From Rhodococcus oxybenzonivorans (lineage in GTDB: Bacteria; Actinomycetota; Actinomycetes; Mycobacteriales; Mycobacteriaceae): a DNA stretch of 64,000 nucleotides. The position numbers were made by a program, and so were the translations under genes. Positions within the stretch are counted from its first letter, which is position 1, and each line of letters starts with the position of its first letter. The stretch spans positions 62,001 through 126,000 of the forward strand of contig NZ_CP021356.1 of NCBI RefSeq assembly GCF_003130705.1, in the 5' to 3' direction. Below, piece by piece: positions 28,309-50,312 of this stretch. Under the pieces are notes generated by a model. That model was not told the origin of the DNA. It did not search any database and saw nothing but the letters and a program-made list of their open reading frames with translations.

Positions 28309-28329
28309 ACTACTATGGGAATTAGTAGT
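28309..28329. promoter_or_regulatory. BlaI-type operator 1 (upstream of blaI/M56)
   Basis: ACTACTA-TGGGAAT-TAGTAGT, perfect 7-bp arms with the TACTA-N7-TAGTA core. It lies 250 bp upstream of the blaI-like start with no clear gene between, implying a long leader and autoregulation. Confidence 0.75.
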
Positions 28330-28578
28330 AAGCACACACGCGCACCAAGAAGGGAACCTACACTGAACAAGCTCGACGCCGCGGCCTGTCCAGTACGAGC
28401 GGTGGCGGCTACTCGTTTGGGCAGCGGCCCATCGGCCCCACGGCGCCGCCATTGGATAGACAGAGTCGGCCCGGCGCCGTCCACGTGACTGCGGGCGCAG
28501 GCGACCACCGTCGAATCTGGGCGTGTGCAGGTCGGGAGAGTTGAGCTCAGCGGCCATCTTCTATGAGTGGGAGGAATG

Positions 28579-28935
28579 ATGCATGGACTGGGTGAACTCG
28601 AAGGGGTCGTCATGGACGCGCTCTGGCGCTCCGACGAGCCCCTACGGGTACGCGACGTTCTCGAGGGCCTCACTGGCCGTGAACCCGCATACACGACGAT
28701 CCAGACGGTGATGGACAATCTGCACCGCAAGGGATGGGTCGAGCGCGAACGGCAAGGCCGAGCATTTTCGTACCGTGCTACTCGCAGCCGCGAGCAGGCC
28801 ACAGCAGCTGCAGTGCGTGAGTTGTTGGCCACCAGCGGCGACCCCGCCGGCGTACTGATGCACTTCGCCAAAGGCAGTTCCGAGCAAGAATCAGAAATCC
28901 TGGCCAGAGGGCTGCGAGAGCGAACCGCGCGATGA
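28579..28935 (+). CDS. BlaI/MecI/CopY-family repressor
   Basis: The 118-residue product has the family winged HTH: GELEGVVMDALWRSDEPLRV, then YTTIQTVMDNLHRKGW with ERERQGRAFSYRA. The C-terminal half has the dimerisation helices cut by the partner protease in BlaI/MecI. No CopY-type CxCxxxxCxC zinc/copper site is present, so signalling probably relies on proteolysis. The ATG at 28579 has GGGAGG four bases upstream. The stop overlaps the M56 protease start (ATGA). I propose it binds the seven TACTA-N7-TAGTA palindromes between 28.3 and 50.3 kb. Confidence 0.9.
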   Translation: MHGLGELEGVVMDALWRSDEPLRVRDVLEGLTGREPAYTTIQTVMDNLHRKGWVERERQGRAFSYRATRSREQATAAAVRELLATSGDPAGVLMHFAKGSSEQESEILARGLRERTAR

Positions 28936-29882
28936 TCGTGGCGACGCTGTGGATGCTCGGCGGCCTCCTGCTCGCGATGCTTTCACCTCGCATCCTCACA
29001 ACGATGATCTGTCGATTCGTCAACCCCACCGTTATTTTGGCGACTTGGACCGCGATCGTAGTCGGCACCTTCGTCAACCTGACCGTCCCCGCTGTGGTAC
29101 TGCTGCTACCGAATCATGGGGGGGTATCCGCGCTGTTCCACCTGGCTCAACAATGCTGGCTCGCCCTCCACGATGGCGCCTCGAATGGCGTCGAAACGCT
29201 TGTCGGGGCCGTTGCTGCAATTGCGATCACAGCGATGACAGCCGGAATCCTCATTTCCTGGCTAAGGATGGCCCGCGAGCGTCGCCATACCCATGACAAG
29301 CATCTGGGAATCGTGCATATCCTCGAGGGCACGCTCCAGGTTCATGACCACACGCTGTGGGTGCCCCTCGAACAGCCTCTGGCCTACAGCATCGCGGGAC
29401 GGCCCTCTCTCATCGTGGCGAGTACGGGTTTGCGCTCACACCTTCGCAGCGAGTCCGTCGCTGCAGTGTTGGCGCACGAACGTGCACATCTACGCGGTCG
29501 GCACCACCTGTTCGTCAGATTGGCTGAATCCGTGGCCCTGGTACTGCCGTGGTTGGCGATTATGCGAGCGTCCCCTGTATTGGTCCGTACCCTGGTTGAA
29601 CTCGCCGCCGACGCAAGTGCCGCACGCACCCATGGCAGGAGTGCTGTCCACGACGCGTTGCGGACCCTGCGGCCCCATGCGGTTCCAAGTCCCGCACTGG
29701 CGATGGCGACCGACACCGATTGCACTGCAGTCAGATTGCATGCGTTGGCCACCGACCGCAATCACCAGCCGGGGGTAAGGCGATCCTTCGCCGCGTACGT
29801 CACCGCAATGGCACTGCCAGTTCTGCCAGGAGTGCTCTTCCTCTGCGTAATGACACTGACTTCTTGTCTTGCCGTCGCGTAG
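28932..29882 (+). CDS. M56-family membrane metallopeptidase (BlaR1-like, no sensor domain)
   Basis: The 316-residue protein has N-terminal membrane helices, then a gluzincin motif HERAH within AAVLAHERAHLRGRHHLF, and a further C-terminal helix. It is translationally coupled to the BlaI-like repressor (ATGA). In BlaR1/MecR1 such a protease inactivates the repressor after beta-lactam binding. Here the penicillin-sensor domain is absent, so the inducing signal is unknown. Copper, envelope stress or a lipoprotein-maturation defect are candidate signals. Confidence 0.85.
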   Translation: MIVATLWMLGGLLLAMLSPRILTTMICRFVNPTVILATWTAIVVGTFVNLTVPAVVLLLPNHGGVSALFHLAQQCWLALHDGASNGVETLVGAVAAIAITAMTAGILISWLRMARERRHTHDKHLGIVHILEGTLQVHDHTLWVPLEQPLAYSIAGRPSLIVASTGLRSHLRSESVAAVLAHERAHLRGRHHLFVRLAESVALVLPWLAIMRASPVLVRTLVELAADASAARTHGRSAVHDALRTLRPHAVPSPALAMATDTDCTAVRLHALATDRNHQPGVRRSFAAYVTAMALPVLPGVLFLCVMTLTSCLAVA

Positions 29883-30071
29883 TCGTTCCCTACGTGCTGC
29901 GCACCCCGGACACATCGACGGTGTTAGCCTGCAAGCCTCACCATCCGGGAATACTGGACTCGTACATATTCGACCGTCTAATCACCCCTTCAAACCGCCG
30001 ACACCCAAGGCTGCCCGTCGGTGCCTGATGCGCTGGGGTAGGACCGACCAGGTCCCACCCAGCACCGTTGG

Positions 30072-31768: not shown

Positions 31769-31797
31769 ACTACTATGTTGCTTAGTAGTTAGGGATC
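31761..31797. promoter_or_regulatory. BlaI-type operator 2 (lgt cluster)
   Basis: GATCCCTAACTACTA-N7-TAGTAGTTAGGGATC is a perfect palindrome with 15-bp arms around the TACTA-N7-TAGTA core. It lies 45 bp before the Lgt-like fusion gene, so it should govern the 31.8-35.3 kb cluster. Confidence 0.85.
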
Positions 31798-31841
31798 GGC
31801 GTCCGTCACTGACGCCATTGCCAGAAATTGGGTGGAGCACG

Positions 31842-33209
31842 TTGGGTAAGAAGCCACACAAGAACCGATCCAAGCGGAACGCACGGGCGGCTCACGTCAA
31901 GCAACGGCGCAACCCCGCGACCCATGCCACAAAGGAGCCATCGACTCCCTCATTCGAACTCCAGCCGACCCTCGCAATCGGTCAGAGGTTCTCGACAAGC
32001 CCTGTTCAGCCGGCCTTTGCACCGAACCCACTGATCCGCACGCAACCGGGACATACGCAGACGGCACCGTCTTCGACACGCGCTCGTCCAACTGCTCAGG
32101 CCACAGATATCAATCCCGCAAAACAACGGGCGCTCCGAGAAGATCCCGACTCTCCTCCCCCATCCCCCGGCCCGGGTAGCTGTTCGGAGGCGACCGCGGA
32201 CATTGAGCCTGGTTTGGCCGCCACGTACTGGTCCGACGGGGCAACCACACGGCCACCTGGTGATCTGCATGTCCGGTTTTCAGGTATCCGCACCGACGTT
32301 GCCGGCCCACTAGGGGACGGCGATCGGTTCGAACGCGTCGCACGGGTGGAGAACCTCACCCATGATAGCGGAAGGCTTTCTGTCACTACGAAAGTCAAAG
32401 GGATCAACTCCGGCGCATGGCGAATCAAGGCCGTTCCCTTCGATCCTATGCTCCCGTCGAAGGCCACAGGCGATCCACAGACGATCGTCACCAATACACG
32501 CCTGGCTGCCTTGGCTCAAGGGCCCGGAGTCCGGCTGTGGACGTGGCCGACCCTGATCAGTGTGGGTGTTGTCCTTGCCCTCGTCCTGCAGTCAGTTTTG
32601 CTCTCGCGGGTACACGCCAACGCTGTGGCGGCAACAGGGGTGTCCCTACTCGCGTGCGCCTTGGGTTACCTCGGGGCCAAAGCCTGGTATCTGATTCTCC
32701 ACCGACAACACCCGCGAAAATTCGCAACCGCCGGGGCCTGCATCCAAGGATTTCTGGTAGTCACTCTCGGCGTCCTCGTACTCGGTGGTTTCGTATTGGG
32801 TATGAACGTCGGCACGTTGCTCGACGTGACCACCCCCGGCCTGTTTCTCGCGATGGCGGTCGGCCGACCCGGTTGCTTCCTCGGAGGCTGCTGCGCCGGA
32901 AGTCCCACCACCTCCAAATGGGGCCTGTGGTCGTCCAACCGAACCGTCGGAATTCGCCGCGCACCCGTCCAATTGCTCGAAGCTGCCGCAGCACTTCTCA
33001 TCGGTGTGATCACGCTGACGCTGGTACTGACAGTCGACGCCGTCGCAGGAGCCATCTTCGTAGCGGCCGCGGCCGCTTACACATTTGTTCGGCAGCTGCT
33101 GTTCCCCCTTCGAGCCGATCCCCATACCCGCCTCGGGCGTCGCCTGACTATCGCGATCTCCCTCGCGATCCTCGTAGTAGACGCAGGTGTTCTCACCCTG
33201 ACAACCTAG
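31842..33209 (+). CDS. Lgt-like membrane protein with N-terminal soluble domain
   Basis: The start is TTG 31842, with GGTGGAG before it (in-frame TTG at 31818 is the alternative). Of 455 residues, the first 110 are a basic, Pro/Thr-rich linker. Residues about 125-215 form a soluble beta-rich domain (DLHVRFSGIRTDVAG, RVARVENLTHDSGRLSVTTK). The last 240 are membrane helices with GYLGAKAWYLILHR and GRPGCFLGGCCAGSPTTSKW, which resemble Lgt's catalytic GRxxNFxxGE region. Canonical Lgt has no N-terminal domain and keeps Asn where this has Cys-Cys. It may be a divergent diacylglyceryl transferase or a relative with another acceptor. It follows operator 2 and precedes GNAT and Lgt genes. Confidence 0.75.
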   Translation: MGKKPHKNRSKRNARAAHVKQRRNPATHATKEPSTPSFELQPTLAIGQRFSTSPVQPAFAPNPLIRTQPGHTQTAPSSTRARPTAQATDINPAKQRALREDPDSPPPSPGPGSCSEATADIEPGLAATYWSDGATTRPPGDLHVRFSGIRTDVAGPLGDGDRFERVARVENLTHDSGRLSVTTKVKGINSGAWRIKAVPFDPMLPSKATGDPQTIVTNTRLAALAQGPGVRLWTWPTLISVGVVLALVLQSVLLSRVHANAVAATGVSLLACALGYLGAKAWYLILHRQHPRKFATAGACIQGFLVVTLGVLVLGGFVLGMNVGTLLDVTTPGLFLAMAVGRPGCFLGGCCAGSPTTSKWGLWSSNRTVGIRRAPVQLLEAAAALLIGVITLTLVLTVDAVAGAIFVAAAAAYTFVRQLLFPLRADPHTRLGRRLTIAISLAILVVDAGVLTLTT

Positions 33210-33275: not shown

Positions 33276-34121
33276 ATGCCCGCGAGCGTGCCCGATCGGC
33301 CGAACCCCCAGATGAACGCCCCTCTTTGCGGCCCCCCTCCCGCGCACCGGTTCGGCACTCCCGACCAGTCTGAATCCGCTGTTCTGCTCATACGCCGACT
33401 GAGCCCGGAGGATCTGCCCGAATCCGCACGGGCACATCGTGAGTTGCTGCCGCAGGGCCTATTTCCCGCACTGGGAGATCGGTTTCTCCGTCAGTGGCAC
33501 GCATGCGTCCTCAACGAATCCCACGCGATCGCGCTCGTCGTCGAGGACGTAAGCGGCCCCGACCATCGGATCGTCGGATTCCTGCTCGGAGCCACCGATC
33601 AATCCGCGCATATCAACGGGATCTTGATGCATCGCCGTGCGCTGGGCAAGCTGATCGGTGTCGGTGTCCTTGCCCTGATCCGGAGACCGAAGATCGCGAT
33701 CCGCTTCGCGCGTACACGAGCAGGGCCCTGGACGCGTCGCCTGCTCCGGTCGGTCCCGACACCACGGGCAACCGCCCAGGAGCATGTTCCGGCGAACCGG
33801 ACCGCCGTTCTGTCCGCCGTCGCCCTCTATCCGGAGGTGCGCGGAACGGGAACAGGCACTGCCCTCGTCGAACGATTCCTCGTGGAATCACGGGCGGCCG
33901 GAGCCGAGACCGCGACCCTGGTCACCAAGAGGACGGCCGAAGCAGCAGCACGATTCTACGAACGACTCGGATGGCACGCTGTACAGGAGGGCGCGACCCG
34001 CGACGGCGCTCCCCTCCGCGTATACCGCATTCCCCTCAACGAGACAGTCCACCACCGCAAGGAGACCGGTCCGAGTTCCGGCCGGCAGGAGGGACTGGGT
34101 TCTGAGACCTACCCCCCGTGA
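33276..34121 (+). CDS. GNAT-family N-acetyltransferase
   Basis: The 281-residue product carries a GNAT fold: LLIRRLSPEDLPE at the N-terminus, HRIVGFLLGATD, then the acetyl-CoA motif VALYPEVRGTGTGTALVERF and AARFYERLGWHAVQ. A basic insert (GPWTRRLLRSVPTPRATAQE) is unusual. It lies 66 bp after the Lgt-like gene on the same strand, within the BlaI-type operator 2 cluster. It could acylate an envelope or lipoprotein component; the substrate is unknown. Confidence 0.8.
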   Translation: MPASVPDRPNPQMNAPLCGPPPAHRFGTPDQSESAVLLIRRLSPEDLPESARAHRELLPQGLFPALGDRFLRQWHACVLNESHAIALVVEDVSGPDHRIVGFLLGATDQSAHINGILMHRRALGKLIGVGVLALIRRPKIAIRFARTRAGPWTRRLLRSVPTPRATAQEHVPANRTAVLSAVALYPEVRGTGTGTALVERFLVESRAAGAETATLVTKRTAEAAARFYERLGWHAVQEGATRDGAPLRVYRIPLNETVHHRKETGPSSGRQEGLGSETYPP

Positions 34122-34386
34122 TCGACGCGCGAGAAGGGAAGAGGGGTGCCGGCCGCACCGGAAATGAGCAGTCGGCCGGCACATCGCAGTCTCCCGAATC
34201 GAGGCCACCCAGCCCGCCCCCATTACGTCGAAACAAGGGATTCGCGTGTGACACATCGCAGAAGGGCTCTACCTGTGCCGTCAATCGCACCGGAGGCTAT
34301 CCAAGGGTTGTGCCGTGAGCGCTGGGCGAGTTCCGTCGCCCAGCGAGCACACTCGGCTGTTTGTTCATTTCGGCTACCGTGGCGTC

Positions 34387-35304
34387 GTGACTTCCACCGT
34401 CGACGTCTTGGCCTACATTCCGAGCCCACCCCAGGGGGTGTGGACAGTCGGCCCGGTGCCGGTGCGGGCCTATGCACTGTTCATCATCATCGGCATCGTC
34501 GTCGCCGTGGTCTGGGGCGACCGGCGGTGGACCGACCGCGGCGGCGAGAAGGGCACCGTCCTCGATATTGCGGTCTGGGCAGTTCCCTTCGGTCTGATCG
34601 GTGGCCGGCTCTACCACGTGGCCACCGATTGGAGCACCTACTTCCGCGAGGACGGGGACCCCGTCGACGCTTTGAAGATCTGGCAGGGTGGCCTCGGCAT
34701 CTGGGGCGCCGTGCTGCTCGGCGGTGTCGGCGCCTGGATCGGCTGCCGGGTACGTGGAATACCGCTGCCCGCGCTCGGGGACGCGGTCGCTCCAGCCATC
34801 CTGCTTGCCCAAGCCATCGGCCGAATCGGCAACTACTTCAACCAGGAGCTCTACGGCCGGGAAACTACTCTCCCCTGGGGGCTGAAGATCTTCCAGCGGA
34901 TCGACGCGTCCGGCAAGCTCGACACGCTGACCGGAACCTCCACCGGTGTGGTGGAGCGAATCGTACACCCCACCTTCTTGTACGAGCTGACCTGGAATCT
35001 GATCATCGTCGTCCTGCTGGTCTGGGTGGACCGACGACACCGAATCGGCCACGGCCGACTGTTCGCCCTCTACGTCGCCGGATACAGCGCGGGCCGGTTC
35101 TTCGTGGAACTCCTACGCGACGACTACGCCACCCACATCGCGGGCATCCGGATCAACTCATACACTTCCGCGATCGTCTTCACCGGCGCGGTGATCTACT
35201 TCCTCGCCGCCAAGAGAGGGTGCGAGACACCAGAAGAGCTGCAGCCCAGGAATCAACGCGATGAGACGGACGACGGGGCGGCCGACAAGGGGACGCCCAC
35301 CTGA
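34387..35304 (+). CDS. lgt: Prolipoprotein diacylglyceryl transferase Lgt
   Basis: The 305-residue membrane protein from GTG 34387 contains the Lgt signature GRIGNYFNQELYGRETTLPW, the upstream VPFGLIGGRLYHV and the C-terminal GRFFVELLRDD. It attaches diacylglycerol to the lipobox Cys, the first step of lipoprotein maturation. No Shine-Dalgarno is seen, so translation may be leaderless or coupled. It belongs to the same direction cluster as the Lgt-like protein and GNAT. As actinobacteria carry a chromosomal lgt, this looks like an extra copy for the DUF305, TlpA and ZnuA-like lipoproteins here. Confidence 0.9.
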   Translation: MTSTVDVLAYIPSPPQGVWTVGPVPVRAYALFIIIGIVVAVVWGDRRWTDRGGEKGTVLDIAVWAVPFGLIGGRLYHVATDWSTYFREDGDPVDALKIWQGGLGIWGAVLLGGVGAWIGCRVRGIPLPALGDAVAPAILLAQAIGRIGNYFNQELYGRETTLPWGLKIFQRIDASGKLDTLTGTSTGVVERIVHPTFLYELTWNLIIVVLLVWVDRRHRIGHGRLFALYVAGYSAGRFFVELLRDDYATHIAGIRINSYTSAIVFTGAVIYFLAAKRGCETPEELQPRNQRDETDDGAADKGTPT

Positions 35305-36809: not shown

Positions 36810-37796
36810 TCAATTGAGTCCGGCGTATGAGTGCAGACCGGAGACGACCATATTGATGATGAAGAGGTTGAACAGCATGGCGACAAACCCCGTGATGTTG
36901 ATCCATGCCGCTCGGGTATCGCGCCAACCCGATGTGGCGCGAGCATGCAGGTAGGCGGCATATACCACCCAGGCGATGAACGACACAGTTTCTTTGGGAT
37001 CCCAGCCCCAGAACCTGCCCCACGCTGCTTCCGCCCAGATGGCTCCGAGGATGACGCCAGAACCGAACAGTGGAAAAGCGAAGATCGTTGTCCGGTAGGC
37101 GAGCTGATCGAGGACTCGGGAATCGGGTAGCTGTCGGACAAACCGTATCAAGGCGCCCGATTCCTCTGAGCTGTCGGAGTAACTGACTCTCAATAGAAAC
37201 AGAATGCTCGCCACTCCGGAAATCAGGAAGACGCCGCTGCCAATCGAGACGATCGACACGTGGATCGGCAGCCAGTACGACTGCAGCGCCGGTACGACTG
37301 GTGCGGCATCGGCATAGAGCACGGTGCCCGCGACGAACAATAGAATCAGTATCGGGATGAGGGCGAATACCCACAGGGTGCGCAGACTTGCCCGACGCAG
37401 CACGATCAATCCCGCGAGGACGGCAGCAGCGCAGGTGAGAGTGACGAATTCGTACATATTGCCCCACGGCACCCGGGCGGTGGCGAGGCCTCGCAGGACA
37501 ATCGATGCGAGATGAGCCGAAAGCCCCACCACGACCATGCTCATACCCATACGGCCGAGCCGATCCGAGCGTGAGCGACGGGGCGGCTCGACTAGCCGAC
37601 CGGGTCTGTCCGCAGTTGTTGTCACGACAGGTGTCCCGGCGCGGACAAGGGTGGGAGTGCGCTCGAGTGCGTCGAGTGCTCGTGTTCGTAGGGACGCGAA
37701 CTCAGCGCTCAGGAGGATCAGCGCGAACGCATAGATCACGACGGCGGTGGCGAAACTGAAATCGCTGTAACGGGCCAGGTTGTCGTCAATCGGCAT
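36810..37796 (-). CDS. ccsB: Cytochrome c biogenesis protein CcsB (System II)
   Basis: The 328-residue membrane protein contains the heme-handling WWD motif (WGRFWGWDPKETVSFIAWVV), the conserved WLPIHVSIVSIGSGVF and a C-terminal HSYAGL. It forms with ResB the complex that delivers heme to apocytochromes outside the membrane. The ATG at 37796 has GAGGA upstream and follows the ResB stop closely. It is the last gene of a tlpA-ccdA-resB-ccsB operon. Confidence 0.9.
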   Translation of the reverse strand: MPIDDNLARYSDFSFATAVVIYAFALILLSAEFASLRTRALDALERTPTLVRAGTPVVTTTADRPGRLVEPPRRSRSDRLGRMGMSMVVVGLSAHLASIVLRGLATARVPWGNMYEFVTLTCAAAVLAGLIVLRRASLRTLWVFALIPILILLFVAGTVLYADAAPVVPALQSYWLPIHVSIVSIGSGVFLISGVASILFLLRVSYSDSSEESGALIRFVRQLPDSRVLDQLAYRTTIFAFPLFGSGVILGAIWAEAAWGRFWGWDPKETVSFIAWVVYAAYLHARATSGWRDTRAAWINITGFVAMLFNLFIINMVVSGLHSYAGLN

Positions 37797-40238: not shown

Positions 40239-40876
40239 TTCTCGGCCGCCACTCGTTCGATGACCGGTTGTAGGTCCTCGGTCAGCAGGGCGCGCAGGAA
40301 CACCGCGGCTACCCGGTGCTCGCGATCGAGAACCAGAGTCGAGGGGATCACGCTGGTGGGGTAATTGCCGCCCAGAGCCGTCAGGGTTCGCATGGGCGGG
40401 TCGTAGATGGATGGATACGACACCTTGTTGTCGACCACGAAGTCCTGCGCTTTGTCGCGTTGGGGGTCGCGGACGTCGATACCGAGAAATTGCACCCCGA
40501 GATTCTTGGTGGACTCGTAGGCGCGCTCAAGGTCATCGGCTTCTGCGCGGCACGGTGCACACCATTGGCCCCAGAGGTTGATGACCACGACCTGACCGGT
40601 GTAGTCCGACACCGCCCGGGTCTGGCCCTCGGTCATCAGGTCGGGACCGGACAGCGGACCGATCGATCCGCGTGTGTCGGGAGGGTCGTAGAAGATTTCG
40701 GTCTTTCCACCTGGGGAGACGAAGTCGAAAGTTCCGCCTTGCGCGACTGCGTCCGATCCCGACGCGCACGCGGTGGCGCCTATCAGTGCCACGAGGATAA
40801 GGGCCACCAGCTTGACTATGCGCCGGCCCGGGTTGGCTCCGCGACAACGAGTGCCCGGGGACGACGCGCGCGTCAT
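40235..40876 (-). CDS. TlpA/ResA-like thioredoxin lipoprotein
   Basis: The 213-residue product from ATG 40876 has a lipoprotein signal with lipobox ATAC, then a thioredoxin domain with the redox motif WGQWCAPCRAEADD and the cis-Pro region YPTSVIPSTLVLDR. It keeps apocytochrome cysteines reduced for heme attachment. It is the first gene of the tlpA-ccdA-resB-ccsB operon. Its promoter contains the TACTA-N7-TAGTA operator at 40998. As a lipoprotein it would be a substrate of the duplicated Lgt and Lnt. Confidence 0.9.
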   Translation of the reverse strand: MTRASSPGTRCRGANPGRRIVKLVALILVALIGATACASGSDAVAQGGTFDFVSPGGKTEIFYDPPDTRGSIGPLSGPDLMTEGQTRAVSDYTGQVVVINLWGQWCAPCRAEADDLERAYESTKNLGVQFLGIDVRDPQRDKAQDFVVDNKVSYPSIYDPPMRTLTALGGNYPTSVIPSTLVLDREHRVAAVFLRALLTEDLQPVIERVAAEK

Positions 40877-40997
40877 GGCCACACCATCCGGGCATGTCCG
40901 GCGGTCAGTCGGGTGACCGCCGATGGCGCGGGCGTCCGCCTTGTCACCGAGAACACATGGGACACCTCTGCCACCTTTCACGAACTACCAACCGTAA

Positions 40998-41014
40998 TAC
41001 TAAGTAGGATAGTA
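40998..41014. promoter_or_regulatory. BlaI-type operator 3 (cytochrome c operon / small membrane protein)
   Basis: TACTA-AGTAGGA-TAGTA with 5-bp arms. It lies in the divergent promoter between tlpA (minus, start 40876) and the small membrane protein at 41073 (plus). Confidence 0.7.
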
Positions 41015-41515: not shown

Positions 41516-42154
41516 TCATCGGACCAGACTGCCTATTGCCTCTCGAACCTGCGCGGGGTCGTGGAAGACCGGGGTGCTGGTGATCCGTTCGACGGTCCCG
41601 TCGCGCTGAACGAGGAAGCTCAGCGGCAGTACCGGAGGCGCCGGTAACGCCTTTTGTACCGCATCAGCGTCTCCGAATGACGGGTAGTGGGCATTCAACT
41701 CGGTCAGCAGCGCGAGGGCGTTGGTTTGTTTGTCCTGGACGTTGACACCCACCACCCGCACCGCACCGGGTTCGTTGGCGTAGGCCTCAAGTACGGGGAT
41801 TTCCTGTCGGCATGGAGCGCACCAGGAGGCCCAGAGGTTGATCAACGTGGGCTCTCCAGAAAGGGCGGAGCCGATGTCGATTTTCGTGGTGGAGCCGAGG
41901 CAGGGCGCGGTGACGCCGGTGAGGTCTCCGGGGAGTGCACCGTCCGGCGGGGCTTCGGGGCAGGGGCGCAGTGCAGCCGCGGCAGCCAGCTGCGCCAATT
42001 CGGCTTCATCGACCTCGCTCGTCGAGGTTCCGTGGGACGCGCCCGTAGGAAGTGAGGACGCTAGTTCTGAGTCGTCCCCCCGCGGCCAGATTGCCGCGAT
42101 GAGTAGGATAGCCGCCGCAAGGGCAACTAGTAGCCAACGCATTTCGGCGCGCAT
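41516..42154 (-). CDS. TlpA-like thioredoxin protein (second copy)
   Basis: The 212-residue product starts at ATG 42154 with AAGGAG upstream and has an N-terminal anchor (WLLVALAAAILLIAAIW). The thioredoxin domain has the redox motif INLWASWCAPCRQEIPVLEA and VLPLSFLVQRDG. An additional Cys pair (RPCPEAPPDG, TAPCLGSTT) lies before it. It is probably an extracytoplasmic reductase or chaperone for copper or heme proteins. Unlike the first TlpA it has no lipobox. Operator 4 is 66 bp upstream. Confidence 0.85.
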   Translation of the reverse strand: MRAEMRWLLVALAAAILLIAAIWPRGDDSELASSLPTGASHGTSTSEVDEAELAQLAAAAALRPCPEAPPDGALPGDLTGVTAPCLGSTTKIDIGSALSGEPTLINLWASWCAPCRQEIPVLEAYANEPGAVRVVGVNVQDKQTNALALLTELNAHYPSFGDADAVQKALPAPPVLPLSFLVQRDGTVERITSTPVFHDPAQVREAIGSLVR

Positions 42155-42219: not shown

Positions 42220-42238
42220 CTACTATCGTTCATAGTAG
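42220..42238. promoter_or_regulatory. BlaI-type operator 4 (tlpA2)
   Basis: CTACTAT-N5-ATAGTAG, perfect 7-bp arms with the TACTA-N7-TAGTA core, 66 bp upstream of the second tlpA. It lies in the minus-strand promoter; the plus-strand side has no gene. Confidence 0.8.
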
Positions 42239-42389: not shown

Positions 42390-43223
42390 TTATGCCTTGG
42401 AGAACTCTGTGATATCAACGCCTTTGGCTTCCAGCCACTGCTTCGGATCCACCTTCAGACCGGTGGGGTCCGCCACTTCGAAGTGCAGATGCGGACCCGT
42501 GGATTGGCCGCGGTTGCCGACGGTAGCGATCTGGTCGCCGGCGTTAACGCGCTGGCCTGTGCTCACCAGGGTCTCATTGATGTGTCCGTAGGTGCTCATG
42601 GATCCGTCGTCATGCTGGATTCGTACCCAGAGCCCGAATCCGGATGCCGGACCGGAGTCGATCACGGTTCCGTCAGCTGCCGCGTATATCGGGGTGCCGA
42701 TGTCGTTGGCGATATCGAGACCGGTATGTGTCGTTCCCCAACGGGGGCCAAAATCTGAGGTAAGCGTGCCGGATACGGGTTTGACCGCAAGGGGCTTGCG
42801 CGTCTGGGCCTCGAGTGCCGCTCTCTGAGCCTCGAGCGCCGCCCTTTGATCCGCGAACCACTCGCCCTTGGCGAGTTGCTCGACCATGGCGTTCGCATCC
42901 GGGAGGGAGGGAAGGGCGAGGACCTGTGGGGCCGTAGGTGGCACGGCAGCATTTCCAGGCGCTGGGGCCTCGGGAGCGCGGACCTCTTCGACGTCGGCCT
43001 GCACGGTATGAGCTTGTGCGACGCCCGTACTGGCGGTCCCCGCCAGCAGAGCGCCTGCGGCCACAGCCATGGTGGCCATGAGCGCTGTGTGGTCGCCTGA
43101 TCGGGCCGGTGTCCTGTGGCGTCCTCCTGCCGTATTCGCCGCAATCAGTTCCGGTGGCGTCACCTCGAAGATTTCGTGGTGCCAGCGAAGGCCGGAGCTT
43201 GTGCGTTTACGGTGCCGTGACAA
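42390..43223 (-). CDS. M23-family cell-wall endopeptidase
   Basis: The 277-residue product starts at TTG 43223 with AGGAG eight bases upstream and has a signal-like hydrophobic stretch (ALMATMAVAAGALLAG). A coiled-coil linker (EWFADQRAALEAQRAALEAQ) precedes the M23 domain with both zinc motifs, RWGTTHTGLDIAND and GPHLHFEV. It should cut peptidoglycan stem peptides. Operator 5 lies 114 bp upstream, inside the 3' end of lnt. The truncated M23 gene at 9.7 kb is a relative. Confidence 0.85.
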   Translation of the reverse strand: MSRHRKRTSSGLRWHHEIFEVTPPELIAANTAGGRHRTPARSGDHTALMATMAVAAGALLAGTASTGVAQAHTVQADVEEVRAPEAPAPGNAAVPPTAPQVLALPSLPDANAMVEQLAKGEWFADQRAALEAQRAALEAQTRKPLAVKPVSGTLTSDFGPRWGTTHTGLDIANDIGTPIYAAADGTVIDSGPASGFGLWVRIQHDDGSMSTYGHINETLVSTGQRVNAGDQIATVGNRGQSTGPHLHFEVADPTGLKVDPKQWLEAKGVDITEFSKA

Positions 43224-43331: not shown

Positions 43332-44912
43332 CTAATTACTACCCGGCTTAGTAGCTGTGTGGCGGAGGCGGCGTCGTACGGCGATGAGGATTGCGGGCAC
43401 CACGAGCAGTGCAAGAACGAGCTCGGGAACTGATCCGAGGCGGGTGGCCAGGGTCAGGTCGGTGCGCAAGGGGATGGCGCCGACGAGCGCGTCGGCGGTG
43501 AAGATCCGGCTCTGTTGTTGAACGGTACCGTCCGGTTCGATGATCGCGCTGACCCCACTGGTGGCGGCAACAAGCACGCTGCGTCCGTGCTCGACTGCGC
43601 GGACTCGGGACATCGCCAGTTGTTGATAGGTCATATCCGTACGCCCGAAGGTGGCGTTGTTGGTGGGCACGGTGATCAGCTGAGCTCCGGCGCGAACGGA
43701 CTCCGACACGAGATCGTCGAAGGCCACCTCGTAGCAGGTTGCAACGGCCAGTGGAACGCCGTTGAGTTCTACGACGCCGTTGCCATTGCCGGCCACGAAC
43801 TTTCCTGCCTGGTTCGCGTAGGGTGACACGGCGGTCATCACCGTGCGTAAGGGAAGGTATTCCCCGAAGGGGACTAGTTGGCGCTTGACGTGTTGCTGTC
43901 CTGGTCCGCTGACCGGATCCCACACGATTGCACTGTTGAGGGTTGTGTTGCCCTCCCCGATGAGGACGGCGCCGACCAGGACTGGGACTCCCATTGTCTG
44001 GGCGGCGGCGTCGATCCGGTCAGCTGCATCTTTGTTGAGTAGAGGATCGATGTCAGAGGCGTTTTCCGGCCAAATGACGAGTTGAGGTCGGCGCGCCCGG
44101 CCTGCGGCGACATCCGCTGCCAGTTGTTCGGTCCTGGCGAGGTGGTTGTCGAGTACAGCGCGCCGTTGCGCGTTGAAGTCGAGGCCGAGTCGCGGGACGT
44201 TTCCTTGGATAACCGCCACGGTTGTCATATCCCGATTCGGGACAGTGGTCGGCGAGAGGGACAGTGCGAGTAGTACGGGGATCGAGATCAGTACGGCGTT
44301 GCCCATCGAACTCCGCCAGCGGCGCGTCCGGGCTTGGATTACACATGCGGCAAGTCCCGTGCCCATCACCGCGAGTGCGAAACTCAGGCCGGGGGCACCG
44401 GCGATCTCTGCGAGCGGCAGAAGGATTCCGTCCACCTGACCGAAGGCCAGTCGCCCCCACGGGAAGCCCCCGAAAGGGGCGCGGGCACGCACTGCTTCGG
44501 TGGCCACCCAGGCACACGCCACCCATACCGTCGACAGTGGTAGTCGGCTGACCAGTGCTGCGATTGCACCGAAGAGCCCTACTGCAACCGCTTCGATCGC
44601 CGCGAGCGCCAACCACGGCACCGCCCCGACATACGCCCCTACCCATGGCAGGAGCGGCACGAAGAACGCCAGTCCGGCGAGGTAGCCGTATCCGAAGCCC
44701 GCGCGGACGGAACGCCCTCGGAGCATGAGAGTCAGGACCGCGATCCCCAAAGGAGCGAAAAACCAGGTCGTGCGCGGGGGAAAGCTGAGAAACAGCAGGG
44801 CGCCCGCCCCCAGAGCCGCGGCACAGCGGAAGAGGGCATCAGCGATTCGTCTGGTGACTGCCCGATGGCTCTGGACGTCCGCGTGATCCGTCATTCGCAA
44901 GAGGTCGACCAT
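43332..44912 (-). CDS. lnt: Apolipoprotein N-acyltransferase Lnt
   Basis: The 526-residue membrane protein from ATG 44912 (in-frame ATG at 44894 possible) has N-terminal helices and a nitrilase-fold domain with the full catalytic triad: Glu in VIWPENASDI, Lys in QHVKRQLVPFGEYLP and Cys in ATCYEVAFDD. It N-acylates the lipobox Cys after Lgt and LspA. Together with the extra Lgt this is a second lipoprotein maturation set; no lspA is in the window. It is divergent from mmpL across operator 6. Confidence 0.9.
   Translation of the reverse strand: MVDLLRMTDHADVQSHRAVTRRIADALFRCAAALGAGALLFLSFPPRTTWFFAPLGIAVLTLMLRGRSVRAGFGYGYLAGLAFFVPLLPWVGAYVGAVPWLALAAIEAVAVGLFGAIAALVSRLPLSTVWVACAWVATEAVRARAPFGGFPWGRLAFGQVDGILLPLAEIAGAPGLSFALAVMGTGLAACVIQARTRRWRSSMGNAVLISIPVLLALSLSPTTVPNRDMTTVAVIQGNVPRLGLDFNAQRRAVLDNHLARTEQLAADVAAGRARRPQLVIWPENASDIDPLLNKDAADRIDAAAQTMGVPVLVGAVLIGEGNTTLNSAIVWDPVSGPGQQHVKRQLVPFGEYLPLRTVMTAVSPYANQAGKFVAGNGNGVVELNGVPLAVATCYEVAFDDLVSESVRAGAQLITVPTNNATFGRTDMTYQQLAMSRVRAVEHGRSVLVAATSGVSAIIEPDGTVQQQSRIFTADALVGAIPLRTDLTLATRLGSVPELVLALLVVPAILIAVRRRLRHTATKPGSN
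43337..43353. promoter_or_regulatory. BlaI-type operator 5, inside the lnt 3' end
   Basis: TACTA-CCCGGCT-TAGTA. It overlaps the last codons of lnt (encoding ATKPGS near the C-terminus) while serving the downstream M23 gene on the same strand. Confidence 0.7.
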
Positions 44913-45003: not shown

Positions 45004-45030
45004 TGAACTACTATCGGCGATAGTAGTTCA
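45004..45030. promoter_or_regulatory. BlaI-type operator 6 (lnt / mmpL divergent promoter)
   Basis: TGAACTACTATC-GGC-GATAGTAGTTCA, a perfect palindrome with 12-bp arms and the TACTA-N7-TAGTA core. It is 92 bp upstream of lnt and 296 bp upstream of the chosen mmpL start. Confidence 0.85.
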
Positions 45031-45325: not shown

Positions 45326-47497
45326 ATGACACGCTGGGCCTCGATAGTCATCGCACGCAAATGGCGGGTGTTCGCCTTCGCAGTACTGATAGTGACAGTC
45401 TGCGGCGTTTGGGGCACAGGGGTTTTCAGCAAGCTCAGCACTGGAGGCTACATCGATCCGGCGAGCGACTCGGCGCAGGTCGCTGAGATCATCGATCGTA
45501 ACTTCGGGCAGCAGCACCCGGACATCGTGGCGATCTACACGCCACCAGAAGGAAAGACCGTCGCCGACATCGAGCAGAAGGTCACTTCAGTACTGGACCG
45601 ATTCGCCGCCGAAAATCTGACGCGGTCGGTGTCGTCATACTGGACGGCCACTCCGCCCGGCAAAGGACTCCTCCTGTCCGAAGACGGCACCAAGGCGGCA
45701 GCGGCGATCATCCTCGCCCCCGATCCGCGGAGCGCGATGGCGGACTTCAATCAGCTGCTGCCCCAGCTCGAGGTCGACGGTGTCGACGTGGAGTTCGCTG
45801 GAGGCTCCGTCGTCGGCCAGGCATTCAATCACCAACTGCAGAAAGACCTCATCCGAGCTGAGGCAATCGCACTGCCCATCACGCTGGTCCTTCTAGTGTT
45901 CATATTCGGTGGCCTCACAGCCGCGGCGGTCCCGGTGCTCGTCGGCATTCTCGCGGTCTTGGGCGCCCTCGCCACCCTGCGGGTTCTCACCATGTTCACT
46001 GAGGTGAGTTCGTTCGCGATCAACGTCGCCTCGCTGATCGGACTGGGCCTCGCTATCGATTACGGGCTGTTCGTCGTCAGCCGCTTTCGGGAGGAACTCG
46101 AATCCGGCAGCACCCCCCATGAAGCCGCACGCCGGACCATTCTCACCGCAGGTCGCACGGTCATGTTCTCCGGTTTGCTGCTCATTTGCGCCTTCGCGGG
46201 CATGCTCGTCTACCCCCAGGCGGTGATCCGCTCGCTCGGGTTCGGTGCCATCGCTGCGGTCACGAGTGCCGCGGTGCTAACGCTGACTGCCGTCCCCGCG
46301 CTGCTGGCCATCCTCGGACACCGAATCAACTCGCTCACGTGGCGCACGAATGCCGCCCAGCGCGGCGAAGTGCGGGCCCGCCGATTCTGGGGTGGCGTAG
46401 TCACCCGAGTCATGCGCCGTCCCATCGCCTTCGCAGTCATCATCATCAGCGGGTTGCTGGTCTTGGCCGCACCGTTGGGAGGGGCGACGCTCGGCGAGGT
46501 CACCTACACCGCACTGCCAGCAGGCGATCCCGCCCGCACGGCCATGGAAACCTTGGCAACCGAGTTCCCGGCGACCGGCGAAGGCGCCACCGTGATCCTT
46601 CGCGGAACTGACGGTGCACCGCCCACCCCTGCGGATACCACTACTGTCATTTCCGCAGCGAGCCGTGTGGACGGCATCACGCAGGCCCTGGTTGTGGCGA
46701 CGCGAGACGACGTCGTGGCAATGCAAGCGTTGTACGCCGGCGACGTCGGAAGCGACCGGGCGAGCGCCGCAGTGGACGAGTTGCGTGCCATCGCAGCGCC
46801 CGAAGGCACGCAACTGTTGGTGGGCGGCGGCCAGGCCATGGTCGATGACGGAAACGCCGCAATCGTGCGCTGGCTTCCCATCATGGTCGCCATCATGGTC
46901 GGTTCCACGCTGGTGCTGTTGTTCCTCGCTTTCGGTTCGGTGGTCCTGCCGATCAAGGCAGTCGCGATGGCTGGGTTGAGTCTCGCCGCGACATTCGGGG
47001 TACTGACCTGGGTATTCGAACAGGGCAACGGCGCCGCACTCCTCGGCGTCAGCCCGTCCCCGCTCGAGGCCACGTTCGTGGTGCTGATCCTTGCCGTGGT
47101 GTTCGGTCTGTCGACGGACTACGAAGTATTTCTCATGTCCCGCATGGTGGAGGCACGCGCCGAAGGGGCCACCACAGAGGAGGCTGTGCGGTTCGGGGCC
47201 GAACACACCGGCCGCGTGGTCACCGCGGCCGCCCTGCTACTCATCGTCGTCACCGGCGCGTTCACTGCGTCCGGTTTGTCGATCATGCGGTTCCTCGGTG
47301 TCGGAATGATTCTCGCCCTGATCATCGACGCGACGGTGGTCCGGATGTTGCTGGTGCCCTCGCTCGTCAAATTGATGGGCGAGGCCAATTGGTGGGCTCC
47401 GGCGTGGATGACACGGATACACGCTCGGTTCGGAATCGGGCACGGACGCGAGATCGAGACATCGCATCACCGGGTCAAAACATCAATCTCCAGTTAA
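45326..47497 (+). CDS. MmpL-type RND transporter
   Basis: The 723-residue protein from ATG 45326 has the MmpL duplicated architecture: a large extracytoplasmic loop after helix 1, then helices with IGLGLAIDYGLFVVSRFREE, and a second half with AVVFGLSTDYEVFLMSRMVE. The two D-Y pairs are the proton-relay motif of MmpLs. It exports lipids, siderophores or similar in mycolate bacteria; the substrate is unknown. An alternative start upstream would add about 54 residues of no clear homology. Operator 6 lies in its promoter region. Confidence 0.85.
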   Translation: MTRWASIVIARKWRVFAFAVLIVTVCGVWGTGVFSKLSTGGYIDPASDSAQVAEIIDRNFGQQHPDIVAIYTPPEGKTVADIEQKVTSVLDRFAAENLTRSVSSYWTATPPGKGLLLSEDGTKAAAAIILAPDPRSAMADFNQLLPQLEVDGVDVEFAGGSVVGQAFNHQLQKDLIRAEAIALPITLVLLVFIFGGLTAAAVPVLVGILAVLGALATLRVLTMFTEVSSFAINVASLIGLGLAIDYGLFVVSRFREELESGSTPHEAARRTILTAGRTVMFSGLLLICAFAGMLVYPQAVIRSLGFGAIAAVTSAAVLTLTAVPALLAILGHRINSLTWRTNAAQRGEVRARRFWGGVVTRVMRRPIAFAVIIISGLLVLAAPLGGATLGEVTYTALPAGDPARTAMETLATEFPATGEGATVILRGTDGAPPTPADTTTVISAASRVDGITQALVVATRDDVVAMQALYAGDVGSDRASAAVDELRAIAAPEGTQLLVGGGQAMVDDGNAAIVRWLPIMVAIMVGSTLVLLFLAFGSVVLPIKAVAMAGLSLAATFGVLTWVFEQGNGAALLGVSPSPLEATFVVLILAVVFGLSTDYEVFLMSRMVEARAEGATTEEAVRFGAEHTGRVVTAAALLLIVVTGAFTASGLSIMRFLGVGMILALIIDATVVRMLLVPSLVKLMGEANWWAPAWMTRIHARFGIGHGREIETSHHRVKTSISS

Positions 47498-47713: not shown

Positions 47714-49705
47714 ATGCCTCAACGTCGACCGAAGTTCTCGATCGTCCTGGGTGCCGTCGCCGCCGCGGCGGTGGCAAGCCCCTTCGCGGTGTACTCCATC
47801 TCCAGCACACCGGTTGATGTCCGCTCCGCTCACTCGCCGTCCCCGGCAGACACCTCCCTTCAAATCGCCGAGGTCGTGCTGGCAGCAAGCCCCGACATCC
47901 TCCTTCCATTCGAAGAGTTGACAGGGTTGGACCTGACCGAATTGCTGCGCTTCGGACTACAGAACCTCCCCATCCCCGCGGAGAAGCCTCTGCCCCCACA
48001 GCCGTCAGGTCCAAGTACTACCCCGAGCGACATTGCTGCCGGCGCAACCGGGGGCGCGCTGCCGACCCCCGGCAGCGCTCCCCCACAAGACCAGGCGGGG
48101 GTGACAGTCAAAGAACTGAGCCGGGACACTCCATTTCGCATGGTCGCTCTGACCTCGAACGGACGGCCGACACCAGCCGCCGAGGTTCGCGCCAAACAGC
48201 CAGACGGCTCATGGGGGCCGTGGTTCTCCACCACCCAGATCGACACGCCTCGCAAGGACGGCTCCACCGCCCCGGGCAAGCAAGGGACCGAACCCGTATA
48301 CGTCGGCAAAACGACCACTGTTCAAGTGCTCGTTCCGTCAGACCAAACATCGGTGTCACCGGCCCCTCCCTCCAACGGCGGGACGGGCGCTCCCACTCCT
48401 GGTGCGGAAGCCCCCATCACGCCACCGCCACTCGGCTACGCCCCCGCCTCCGTCGTCAAGCCGCTGGCCCAGGCGCATCAGTCAAGCGATGTCACCGCCG
48501 TCCTGATCGAACCAGGAGAGACTCCGGTCGACAACGAATCCGGCGACGCCACAAACCTCACTGGGCCGTCCGGGCCGAAAGTAATCAGCCGTGCACAGTG
48601 GGGCGCCGATGAATCCCTCCGCTGCGAAGAACCCGCATACGACGACTTCCTGGCAGGAGCTGTCGTTCACCACACCGCAGGAAGCAACGACTACTCCAAG
48701 GAGGAGTCCGCCGACATCATCCGAGGGATCTACGCCTATCACGCACAAACACTCGGATGGTGCGACATCGGTTACCACGTCCTGGTCGACAAGTATGGCC
48801 AAATCTTCGAGGGCCGCGCCGGAGGACTCGACAAGCCAGTGCAGGGCGCCCATACCGGCGGCTTCAACGAAAACACGATGGGCATCGCCATGATGGGTGA
48901 CTACACCAACGTCGAGCCGACCCCGGAGGAAATCAACTCTGTCGGGCAGTTCCTCGGCTGGCGCCTGGAAAAGGCCGGGCTCGATCCGCAGGGTACGACC
49001 ACCATGTACTCGGAAGGCACTGACTACACCTCCTTCCCGGAAGGAGCCGCTGTCGACATCCCTGTCATCTCCGCGCACCGCGATCTCGGGAACACTACTG
49101 ATCCCGGAGATATGGGGTATGCCCACATGGACGAAATCAGAGACATCGCTGCGGCCTACGACGCAGCTGGAAACGAGTCCGCGTTCCAGGCGGCCGCACC
49201 GACGGGGACACAACCAGCTCAAACCGAATCGAGCCCACACCCCAATACAGACCCGCACTCGGCAACCAGCCCGACAGACTCGCGGCTACCGGCCCTCGCG
49301 TCGGAATTGGTCAGGCTGACCGATCAGTCTCCGCTGGCACGAAAGTGGCAATCGGAAGGCGGGGAGACCGGGCGACTCGGAAGAGCTCGAAGCGGGGAGC
49401 TCACTACGCAGAATGGCAACAGATACGCCGACTTCGCCAACGGCGCCATCTACACCTCCTCAAACGGCGAGGCGTGGGCCGTGTTGGGCGCAATCTACAA
49501 CGCGTGGGAATCGCTCAGCGCCGCCGCCGGAGAACTGGGGCTCCCCACCAGCGACGAGTACCGCATTCCGGAAGGCCTACGTACCGACTTCGAAAATGGT
49601 TCTCTGGTCTTCAACGAGATCACCGGGATTGTCACCAAGATCCTCGCCGTGAGCGCATCCTCGCTCGTCTCGGAGGCAGCCCCAGAGGCCCCTCCGGCGC
49701 CGTAG
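47714..49705 (+). CDS. N-acetylmuramoyl-L-alanine amidase with LGFP repeat
   Basis: The 663-residue secreted protein has an N-terminal hydrophobic signal, a Pro/Thr-rich region, then an Amidase_2/PGRP domain with AGAVVHHTAGSND, GYHVLVDKYGQIFEGRAGGL and ISAHRDLGNTTDPG. The third zinc ligand is Asp (as in AmpD) where many PGRPs have Cys. A low-complexity linker leads to an LGFP repeat (WAVLGAIYNAWESLSAAAGE, LGLPTSDEYRIPEGLRTDF), a module of mycolate-type actinobacteria. It trims peptidoglycan. The ATG is preceded by GGGAG. No TACTA-N7-TAGTA site lies in its promoter. Confidence 0.85.
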   Translation: MPQRRPKFSIVLGAVAAAAVASPFAVYSISSTPVDVRSAHSPSPADTSLQIAEVVLAASPDILLPFEELTGLDLTELLRFGLQNLPIPAEKPLPPQPSGPSTTPSDIAAGATGGALPTPGSAPPQDQAGVTVKELSRDTPFRMVALTSNGRPTPAAEVRAKQPDGSWGPWFSTTQIDTPRKDGSTAPGKQGTEPVYVGKTTTVQVLVPSDQTSVSPAPPSNGGTGAPTPGAEAPITPPPLGYAPASVVKPLAQAHQSSDVTAVLIEPGETPVDNESGDATNLTGPSGPKVISRAQWGADESLRCEEPAYDDFLAGAVVHHTAGSNDYSKEESADIIRGIYAYHAQTLGWCDIGYHVLVDKYGQIFEGRAGGLDKPVQGAHTGGFNENTMGIAMMGDYTNVEPTPEEINSVGQFLGWRLEKAGLDPQGTTTMYSEGTDYTSFPEGAAVDIPVISAHRDLGNTTDPGDMGYAHMDEIRDIAAAYDAAGNESAFQAAAPTGTQPAQTESSPHPNTDPHSATSPTDSRLPALASELVRLTDQSPLARKWQSEGGETGRLGRARSGELTTQNGNRYADFANGAIYTSSNGEAWAVLGAIYNAWESLSAAAGELGLPTSDEYRIPEGLRTDFENGSLVFNEITGIVTKILAVSASSLVSEAAPEAPPAP

Positions 49706-49756
49706 AACGGCAACCGCGTTCCCTGGGCACACGTGGTCCCAGTCGTCTGCACTGCG

Positions 49757-50206
49757 TCACCTTTGCCAGGGCGCCATGAGCAACTCGGCATGCAACTGCT
49801 GATTGATCTCGAGTGCGGCTACTGCGATCACCAGCACGACCATGTGTGGAAGCGAAATTCGCCGCGATACTCGGACGGTGACCCACCGACCGGTAGCCCA
49901 GCCGACGGCTGCGCGGGCGCACGCGACGACCGTAGCCACAAGAAGGATCGGAGCCGCTGGGTTGTATCGGATCGCCTCGCGTAGTTGGCCTTGCGTGATC
50001 AGATACCAGGATCGGGTGGCGCCGCAGAGTGGATCCATGATCCCCAGTCGGTGCAGAGGACCGTGCAGATCGACCGGCGGCAACCCGAATAGGGCGAGCG
50101 CCACTGCTATCACAAGGCCGGTCACTGCAAGCCACGTCCAGACCGGGTGCACGTCATCGCGCTCGAGACACAGCATCCGCTGAGTTCGTTCAGGTTGATG
50201 GCGCAT
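49757..50206 (-). CDS. DUF2752-family membrane protein
   Basis: The 149-residue product from ATG 50206 has helices WTWLAVTGLVIAVALALFGL, AAPILLVATVVACARAAVGW and MVVLVIAVAALEI, and the DUF2752 core LHRLGIMDPLCGATRSWYLI with a GQLREAIRYNP loop. Function of the family is unknown. The Cys/Thr-Arg motif at the membrane edge suggests a redox or binding site. Divergent from the CxxC membrane protein with operator 7 between them. Confidence 0.65.
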   Translation of the reverse strand: MRHQPERTQRMLCLERDDVHPVWTWLAVTGLVIAVALALFGLPPVDLHGPLHRLGIMDPLCGATRSWYLITQGQLREAIRYNPAAPILLVATVVACARAAVGWATGRWVTVRVSRRISLPHMVVLVIAVAALEINQQLHAELLMAPWQR

Positions 50207-50295
50207 TCGATCAGTGTCACATAAACCGCAACGCTCCCGGGAACACATCCATGGCGTCCTTGCCGGCGGCTGGTGCAGGAGCACAGCCTCGCAGC

Positions 50296-50312
50296 TACTA
50301 TGCCAGTTAGTA
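50296..50312. promoter_or_regulatory. BlaI-type operator 7 (DUF2752 / CxxC membrane protein)
   Basis: TACTA-TGCCAGT-TAGTA in the divergent promoter, 25 bp before the plus-strand gene (50337) and 90 bp before the minus-strand gene (50206). Confidence 0.75.

Follow-up and report, generated by a model that had tools for sequence, protein, structure and literature searches.

Seven palindromes on a Rhodococcus oxybenzonivorans contig as putative operators of a plasmid-borne BlaI/M56 regulon of envelope and respiratory-assembly genes

Introduction

The window analysed here is a stretch of 64,000 nucleotides from Rhodococcus oxybenzonivorans (bases 62001-126000 of the 299,209-base contig NZ_CP021356.1, hereafter C3; genome of 8.01 Mb in four contigs). 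It contains seven exact copies of the palindrome TACTA-N7-TAGTA, which are considered, with a probability of roughly 0.8, to be putative BlaI-family operators in a BlaI/M56 regulon that is carried on a plasmid and comprises 16 sites or more, together with the targets of that regulon. The operators, the conservation of their targets and the association with BlaI genes were read from the sequence; repression, protease action, inducer and sensor are what we infer.

Results

Palindromes in the window and the genome

The seven sites were located at 28311..28327 (251 bp upstream of blaI; 28.4 bits on a position weight matrix), 31771..31787 (upstream of the Lgt-like/GNAT/Lgt genes; 40.2 bits), 40998..41014 (upstream of tlpA-ccdA-resB-ccsB), 42221..42237 (66 bp upstream of a second tlpA), 43337..43353 (257 bp upstream of the M23 peptidase gene and also overlapping the lnt 3' end), 45009..45025 (between the divergent lnt and mmpL genes) and 50296..50312 (between the divergent DUF2752 and CxxC-protein genes). 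A first-pass annotation, made from the letters of the window, had reported seven copies, each in a promoter; the number is correct and all seven lie upstream of genes by our own gene calls, but four of the seven positions had been given 1-10 bases off. In 100 shuffles of the window, exact sites averaged 0.00 and sites at one mismatch 0.02, which agrees with the earlier estimate that the copies are far above chance, and a scan of the window with up to one mismatch gave no site beyond the seven. When spacings of 3-12 bases were tested, N7 was found seven times and N10 once, the latter being the 28311 site read in another way. The palindrome extends over about 25 bp and reads roughly aaCTACTAT(G/C)nnn(G/C)ATAGTAGtt in a matrix built on the 16 exact C3 sites. 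A fixed placement of -35/-10 elements relative to the operator was rejected, because position matches gave no clear peak.

Window positions 27000-51500 match plasmid pRWAY03 of Rhodococcus sp. WAY2 in four pieces (95.0% identity, 100% query coverage), and because of this match C3 looks like a plasmid. Genome-wide, 19 exact N7 sites were found (reversed control pattern: five), 16 of them within 88 kb of C3 (C3:90311-178699). The earlier statement that the motif occurs nowhere else thus holds within the window but not beyond it, where nine further exact sites lie on the contig to the right and three variant sites on the chromosome; the check then proposed, on whether the motif is just as common elsewhere outside promoters, was carried out on the sequence and gave no such distribution. 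The seventeenth C3 site, at 156246, is degenerate, but its WAY2 counterpart is an exact match and precedes a DUF3105 gene. The matrix scan of C3 covered bases 1 to 246000; a weaker match (C3:46930, 21.6 bits) was recorded to the left of the cluster, outside the window.

The three remaining exact sites are on the 6.6-Mb contig C1, and all read TACTAC-N5-GTAGTA. The base adjoining the core is C/G at these chromosomal sites and T (21), A (10) or C (1) in the 32 half-sites of C3. According to our own gene calls, one C1 site directly precedes the chromosomal blaI-M56 pair, another is 140 bp ahead of cydA-cydB, and the third separates a 154-aa (amino acid) open reading frame (ORF) from atpB. In Mycobacterium tuberculosis, binding of BlaI has been reported at the promoters of both cytochrome bd and ATP synthase (PMC5473688, citing Sala 2009; PMC12565901). 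Because the C1 sites at blaI, cydA and atp match these reported mycobacterial targets, the core motif is, at the level of sequence, independently tied to BlaI. The blaI-type site TACTACTACCAGTAGTA was found exactly in 11 of 12 same-genus genomes (G000-G011, with G011 among the matches listed; G007 is without it). Clusters on one contig were found, among 28 same-genus genomes, in G000 (16 sites), G010 (13) and G021 (15), with four sites in G009; positions in the later genomes were taken from the matches listed, so there are at least these clusters.

Association with BlaI genes

The pattern TACTAT-N5-ATAGTA was searched in 397 genomes of the order and gave 49 sites in 31 of them (reversed pattern: six). 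With G000 left out, 42 sites remain in 30 genomes of 19 genera, and a PF03965 gene is at most 20 kb away for 38 of them, where 0.97 would be expected with uniform placement; the corresponding numbers are 34 within 10 kb (0.48 expected) and 13 within 2 kb (0.1 expected). A footprint set of eight annotated stretches from seven plasmids (WAY2, two stretches; R. qingshengii; R. pyridinivorans; R. erythropolis PR4; R. fascians; Mycolicibacterium chubuense; R. opacus B4) gave 50 sites of at least 18 bits, 49 of them not wholly inside an entered coding sequence (CDS), the plasmid gene tables being incomplete with some features left out of the CDS entered. Reversed controls gave 0-2 per stretch. The plasmid gene orders differ and the sites keep to the same genes; for site-gene pairs of at least 24 bits, selected at 20-130 bp before the start codon, 23 of 38 are at 33-67 bp. 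No site of at least 18 bits was found in a 40.8-kb stretch of R. aetherivorans pRaL13f that has lgt and no annotated BlaI (one match reached 17.1 bits), nor in the next WAY2 stretch (L035). Eleven further stretches from ten genomes all contain a BlaI gene (11/11); they were chosen for motif matches and are hence not independent of the motif. The counts leave out loci L052-L053 (G009). By this comparison of sequences, related bacteria have arrangements of a similar kind. Two operators in tandem, at a distance of 24 bp, were seen at G015:C1:3655514-3655554, on G021:C41 and on G023:C51. The G015 pair, on a contig of 6.0 Mb, is flanked by genes for a CxxC protein and a thioredoxin-like protein and has a BlaI gene nearby.

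Genes that carry sites

Genes with sites were counted in 19 rearranged stretches, through operons and with a limit of 300-320 bp; gene names in the eleven non-annotated stretches are best BLAST matches. A site was found at CtaD in 12 of 13 cases (the remaining one is truncated where the stretch ends), and at all copies of CopC (9/9), of two COX-assembly types (7/7 each) and of DUF3105 (9/9). The thiol genes follow with thioredoxin 7/8, VKOR 3/6, TlpA 18/26 and CcdA 8/12, the cytochrome c genes with ResB 6/8 and CcsB 5/7, the lipoprotein genes with Lnt 6/9 and LspA 4/7, and the wall genes with M23 8/13 and NlpC/P60 2/2. Sites were further counted at MmpL (3/4), GNAT (1/2), DUF305 (9/16), a CtaD-associated hypothetical gene (7/8), multicopper oxidase (4/11), CopCD (1/4), SulP-CA (0/2) and F510-type genes (1/5), and at all six CDF transporters, probably through divergence from CopD. 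No site was found in the 19 stretches at 14 P-type ATPase, 5 HMA, 4 CsoR, 4 histidine kinase, 6 response regulator, 8 ArsR and 5 MerR genes (0/46). Because efflux and regulator genes score 0/46 while the assembly genes carry sites, the regulon is, by these counts, one of envelope and respiratory-chain assembly and maintenance, beside but apart from metal efflux. The BlaI/M56 regulon of envelope-maturation genes described in the first-pass annotation is thus upheld by the comparative evidence but had been drawn too small, as at least 16 exact sites and one degenerate site belong to it and ctaD, NlpC/P60 and others are added. The copper genes that had been said to adjoin it are represented by metal-efflux genes beside the regulon, but these carry no sites (P-type ATPases 0/14).

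The genome contains five ctaD genes, of which the two on C3 carry sites; at the three off C3 (two on C1, one on C2) no exact site was found. Plasmid genes for cytochrome oxidase subunit I, each behind an operator, number two on C3 (C3:128434-130191 and C3:153420-155186) and three in WAY2 (L034). At C3:127255-127402, an operator precedes a lost L,D-transpeptidase gene, of which a match to the first 24 residues is left, the full gene being present in WAY2. Another operator lies about 118 bp before a plasmid 3-phosphoglycerate dehydrogenase-like gene (C3:134510-136240) that is not listed in the WAY2 stretch. The idea of copper-hardened paralogues with a lost catalytic cysteine was rejected, since Lnt proteins keep TCYE (6/6) and plasmid L,D-transpeptidases (WAY2, L038, L042) keep SHGC (3/3); rows with a wrong reading frame are left out of this comparison, and these number two or more each for CtaD (both C1 copies) and L,D-transpeptidase (including the C3:52884 copy).

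BlaI repressor and its protease

The gene behind the first operator encodes a BlaI-family winged-helix repressor (28579..28935, plus strand, 118 aa; PF03965 86.5 bits, cut-off 22.6). Its sole PDB match is 2g9w (56 bits, entry titled 'conserved hypothetical protein'), which we take to be M. tuberculosis BlaI. Of 35 BlaI sequences, 31 have no cysteine and four have one. The window protein has none and so cannot sense copper in the manner of CopY; direct copper sensing of that type is ruled out by the missing C-terminal CxCxxxCxC, the CopY copper site motif (PMC7558416). Downstream of the fourth BlaI gene of the contig (C3:172367-173679) lies no more than a short M56-like piece of 141 aa, as judged by eye.

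The repressor gene is followed by that of an M56/M48-type membrane zinc protease (28932..29882, plus strand, 316 aa, HERAH at 182-186). The protease passes the M48 profile (PF01435, 27.1 bits, cut-off 20.3) and remains below the M56 profile (PF05569, 21 bits, cut-off 31), which the chromosomal M56 passes at 47.9; for the window protease, the label 'M56' comes from the annotators and expresses resemblance rather than a profile match. The HExxH and ExxxD residues (H182, E183, H186, E223 and D227) are invariant in 106 sequences, and HExxH is present in 27 of 27. Foldseek returned M48, Ste24p and five BlaR1 entries, the BlaR1 matches having probabilities of 0.66-0.98 but E values of 0.055-0.5 (none at 0.001); when the protease alignment was used to search solved structures by profile, HtpX was matched at E 1e-5 and three other entries weakly. 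No penicillin-binding sensor domain was found by Pfam scan in the 316-aa protein, which ends just after its last helix. The AlphaFold model has a pLDDT of 85.1 and a pTM of 0.82.

Homologues of the protease were compared for 111 full-length sequences (285-340 aa) among the best 120 of 223, the query itself carrying both cysteines. C75 is kept in 100 of the 111 and a cysteine at the extreme C-terminus in 101, the next-best position reaching 48; with kinship ignored, both are present in 97 sequences, neither in seven and one in seven. Both are missing in the chromosomal M56 and in one C3 paralogue with its WAY2 counterpart; in the proteases of R. erythropolis PR4 and G021, C75 is present and the tail has a histidine. 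The mean charge bias of 138 sequences is +2.1 for residues 19-33, -0.6 for 59-86, +4.7 for 111-125 and +2.8 for 269-285, on account of which C75 and C312 are predicted to lie on the outer membrane face. As a conserved pair predicted to be outside, the two cysteines are put forward as a possible copper or thiol sensor.

Possible second operator class

A second palindrome class, TACTATCTA..TAGATAGTA with 14 bases between the cores (also written CATCTACTATCTA-N6-TAGATAGTAGATG), was found at 54951 and 56844 in the window and at C3:159380, and also in WAY2. The copies lie by a CsoR-like gene (the palindrome TACTA-N14-TAGTA at 54951..54974), a 62-aa small-protein gene and a clade-B blaI (the C3:159380 copy, upstream of the gene, which ends at C3:159287). 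Over all stretches scanned, TACTA-N14-TAGTA was counted ten times against none for the reversed control; the spacings N10 (18 against 1, partly second readings of N7 sites) and N13 (6 against 0) also exceeded it. Of the BlaI genes on C3, that of the window and its paralogue at C3:173311 belong to clade A and two others to clade B, and the two clades may read different operator classes.

Genes of the window

The second operator is followed on the plus strand by the gene of an Lgt-like protein with an extra N-terminal domain (31818..33209, start codon uncertain; PF01790 73 bits, residues 243-461), by a GNAT acetyltransferase gene (33276..34121; PF00583) and by that of Lgt, the prolipoprotein diacylglyceryl transferase (34315..35304, start uncertain; PF01790 223.9 bits). 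In the WAY2 annotation the Lgt-like gene starts 661 bp after its operator. The extra N-terminal region of this protein is conserved between the window and L038 (5801-7030) and has the motif RPGCFLxGCC. The third operator is followed on the minus strand by tlpA (TlpA-like thiol oxidoreductase, 40235..40981, PF00578, start probably at about 40875 by the WAY2 gene), ccdA (thiol electron transfer, 39429..40238, PF02683), resB (37807..39318) and ccsB (36810..37796), the last two for cytochrome c synthesis and assigned by colinear WAY2 genes and gene calls. Also on the minus strand are the genes of the second TlpA-like protein (41516..42154; PF00578), the M23 peptidase (42390..43079; PF01551 113.9 bits on the longer ORF 42390-43223) and the apolipoprotein N-acyltransferase Lnt (43332..44912; PF20154, PF00795; TCYE kept; 58% identical to the large-contig copy). 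The MmpL transporter gene (45326..47497, plus strand; PF03176 235 bits) has downstream of it a gene for an N-acetylmuramoyl-L-alanine amidase with LGFP repeats (47714..49705, plus strand; PF01510, PF08310). The last operator separates a DUF2752 gene (49757..50176, minus strand; PF10825) from that of a membrane-like protein with a CPIC (CxxC) motif in its translation (50337..50834, plus strand; no Pfam family on ORF 50214-50834). Beside the regulon and without an N7 operator lies a heavy-metal P-type ATPase gene (51733..54039, minus strand; colinear WAY2 gene).

Discussion

Proposed mechanism

By family precedent, BlaI dimers would occupy the operators and silence a set of spare genes. These would comprise lipoprotein-maturation genes (Lgt-like and Lnt, elsewhere LspA), cytochrome c and disulphide genes (TlpA, CcdA, ResB and CcsB, elsewhere a DsbA-like thioredoxin and VKOR), cytochrome aa3 (CtaD) with its copper delivery (CopC, CopD/COX-assembly proteins), and the wall enzymes M23, NlpC/P60 and L,D-transpeptidase. 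The protease has no beta-lactam sensor and would respond to copper or thiol damage on the outer side of the membrane, its pair of conserved outer cysteines being the probable trigger; once active, it would inactivate BlaI. The cell could thereupon rebuild the copper-poisoned parts of its envelope and respiratory chain, with efflux under separate regulators. Copper or thiol damage as the signal is advanced tentatively, at somewhat less than even odds. A slightly bolder step, which we hold more loosely again, is that actinobacterial M56 proteases without a sensor domain serve as copper or thiol sensors in which C75 (in the loop between transmembrane helices 2 and 3) and C312 (extreme C-terminus) would bind Cu(I) or make and break a disulphide, driving BlaI cleavage and releasing a mobile spare-parts regulon distinct from efflux.

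Copper is a plausible inducer, and the annotated BlaI islands sit among P-type ATPases, CsoR, CopC/CopD or multicopper oxidases. The assembly of c-type cytochromes is reportedly a key copper target, as a title by Durand from 2015 has it. Lipoprotein acylation is impaired by copper (PMC6538781), and L,D-transpeptidases are inhibited by it (PMC11390936).

Several observations weigh against this picture. With regard to the repressor, C3 holds four BlaI in two clades and thus several candidate binders, the other three BlaI genes have no N7 site, and the site of the window gene is 251 bp from the start. The site that the first-pass annotation had taken as expected for autoregulation is present at this gene, but an upstream site was found at only 11 of 30 BlaI genes and 10 of 23 M56 genes in the related stretches. 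Four of the 42 sites have no nearby BlaI (G240 and G156, both fragmented; G261; G388). With regard to the targets, the Lgt-like/GNAT/Lgt cluster named earlier does have the operator at 31771 upstream, but only one of four Lgt-like genes (start codons uncertain) and the one Lgt gene not at all (0/1) carry a site in the related stretches. The Ig-domain L,D-transpeptidase has a site in four of eight cases, and genes outside the named list have one in 62 of 261, a background that makes the count a contrast and not a clean list. Plasmid Lnt and L,D-transpeptidase retain their catalytic cysteines and show no copper-hardening. As for the sensor, the C75 region of the protease model is of low confidence (block means 57-64), and the co-occurrence of the cysteines ignores kinship, the homologues having been retrieved with a two-cysteine query. 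Finally, a simple reading as copper excess is opposed by efflux genes without sites and copper-delivery genes with them, and in four of the eleven stretches (G122, G347, G395 and G015, each of 12-16 kb) not one gene was matched to a copper family; these last two points weaken copper as the common theme.

Alternative explanations

Two alternatives leave the regulon in place and dispute only the copper or thiol signal. The switch might instead sense respiratory failure or copper shortage and answer a drop in electron transport with more oxidase, more CopC/CopD and more cytochrome c assembly. The best-conserved targets (CtaD, CopC, COX assembly with 14/14 for both types), the chromosomal sites at cydA and atp, the position of the efflux pumps outside the regulon and the stretches without a matched copper gene all fit this explanation; copper efflux and multicopper oxidase genes nevertheless adjoin sites in the annotated BlaI islands, and lipoprotein and wall enzymes are not obviously needed in copper shortage, so that it is rated as unlikely, though the strongest of the competitors. 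Wall damage or beta-lactams as the signal, as in staphylococcal BlaR1-BlaI, are less probable again. The family name points that way, as do M23, NlpC/P60, L,D-transpeptidase, amidase and a nearby VanW among the targets and neighbours, and M. tuberculosis blaR-blaI is induced by the beta-lactam combination AG (PMC5473688). Against it stand the missing penicillin-binding domain of the 316-aa protease, the lack of any beta-lactamase family among the 20 proteins scanned with Pfam, and the most consistent targets, which are oxidase, copper-delivery and thiol genes.

The remaining alternatives concern the sites themselves. Binding by another regulator, either a neighbouring two-component system or a clade-B BlaI, is improbable to a greater degree still: a response regulator/histidine kinase pair is present in the WAY2 island, two clade-B BlaI genes lie on C3, and one copy of the second palindrome class is upstream of a clade-B blaI, but the sites track BlaI genes across 19 genera and the same core recurs at the chromosomal blaI, cydA and atp. 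The two-component version is further opposed by G347, G395 and G418, which have sites and BlaI and no gene matched to a response regulator or histidine kinase among genes of which many carry no identification; the clade-B version is unaffected by this. That the palindromes are mobile repeats or chance occurrences, for which their clustering on a plasmid-like contig could be cited, is practically ruled out by the shuffles, the reversed-pattern controls (0-2 per stretch) and the spacing, by spacers and flanks that vary among copies, and by the 49 of 50 footprint sites not wholly inside an entered CDS. Operators of a BlaI/M56 regulon therefore remain the preferred explanation.

Relation to known systems

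CopY belongs to the same repressor superfamily as BlaI ('BlaI/MecI/CopY' in plasmid annotations), and copper resistance is usually described as export, oxidation or sequestration. The present system resembles CopY in that a repressor lies beside copper genes, but its BlaI is without the C-terminal CxCxxxCxC and has a protease partner. With staphylococcal BlaI/MecI-BlaR1/MecR1 it shares the repressor family and a membrane zinc protease, while the penicillin-binding sensor domain is missing and the regulon is different. The BlaI-BlaR pair of M. tuberculosis (Rv1846c-Rv1845c) also combines a BlaI repressor with a protease lacking a beta-lactam sensor, and its cytochrome bd and ATP synthase targets match the chromosomal sites here (PMC5473688); the regulon described here differs in being plasmid-borne and of other content, in the core-adjoining base (T/A in 31 of 32 C3 half-sites against C/G at the chromosomal sites) and in that the chromosomal M56 of this genome is without both cysteines. 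A mobile copper element with spare lipoprotein-maturation genes (lit2, second lgt) is known from Listeria/Enterococcus (PMC8689077), and lit2 on a copper-resistance element in Gram-positives is likewise described in PMC7387801; in contrast to the present case, no cytochrome, oxidase or wall set is named in the consulted part of PMC8689077. The E. coli Cpx/NlpE system answers copper damage to lipoprotein acylation (PMC6538781), but it is Gram-negative and a different kind of signal transduction. No description of such a regulon was found in the open-access literature, which was judged mostly by title and abstract opening, so that one could be missed.

Conclusions

The mobile regulon would carry, under one switch, replacements for machinery that copper is reported to damage, namely lipoprotein acylation, L,D-transpeptidases and c-type cytochrome assembly. 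The two operator forms, mainly one base per half-site apart, may reflect paralogous repressors that are kept apart in one cell. The cysteine pair would offer a direct handle on the protease signal, although the chromosomal M56 is without the pair, and the sensor proposal, if true, would explain which signal is detected by those BlaR proteins that have no penicillin-binding domain.

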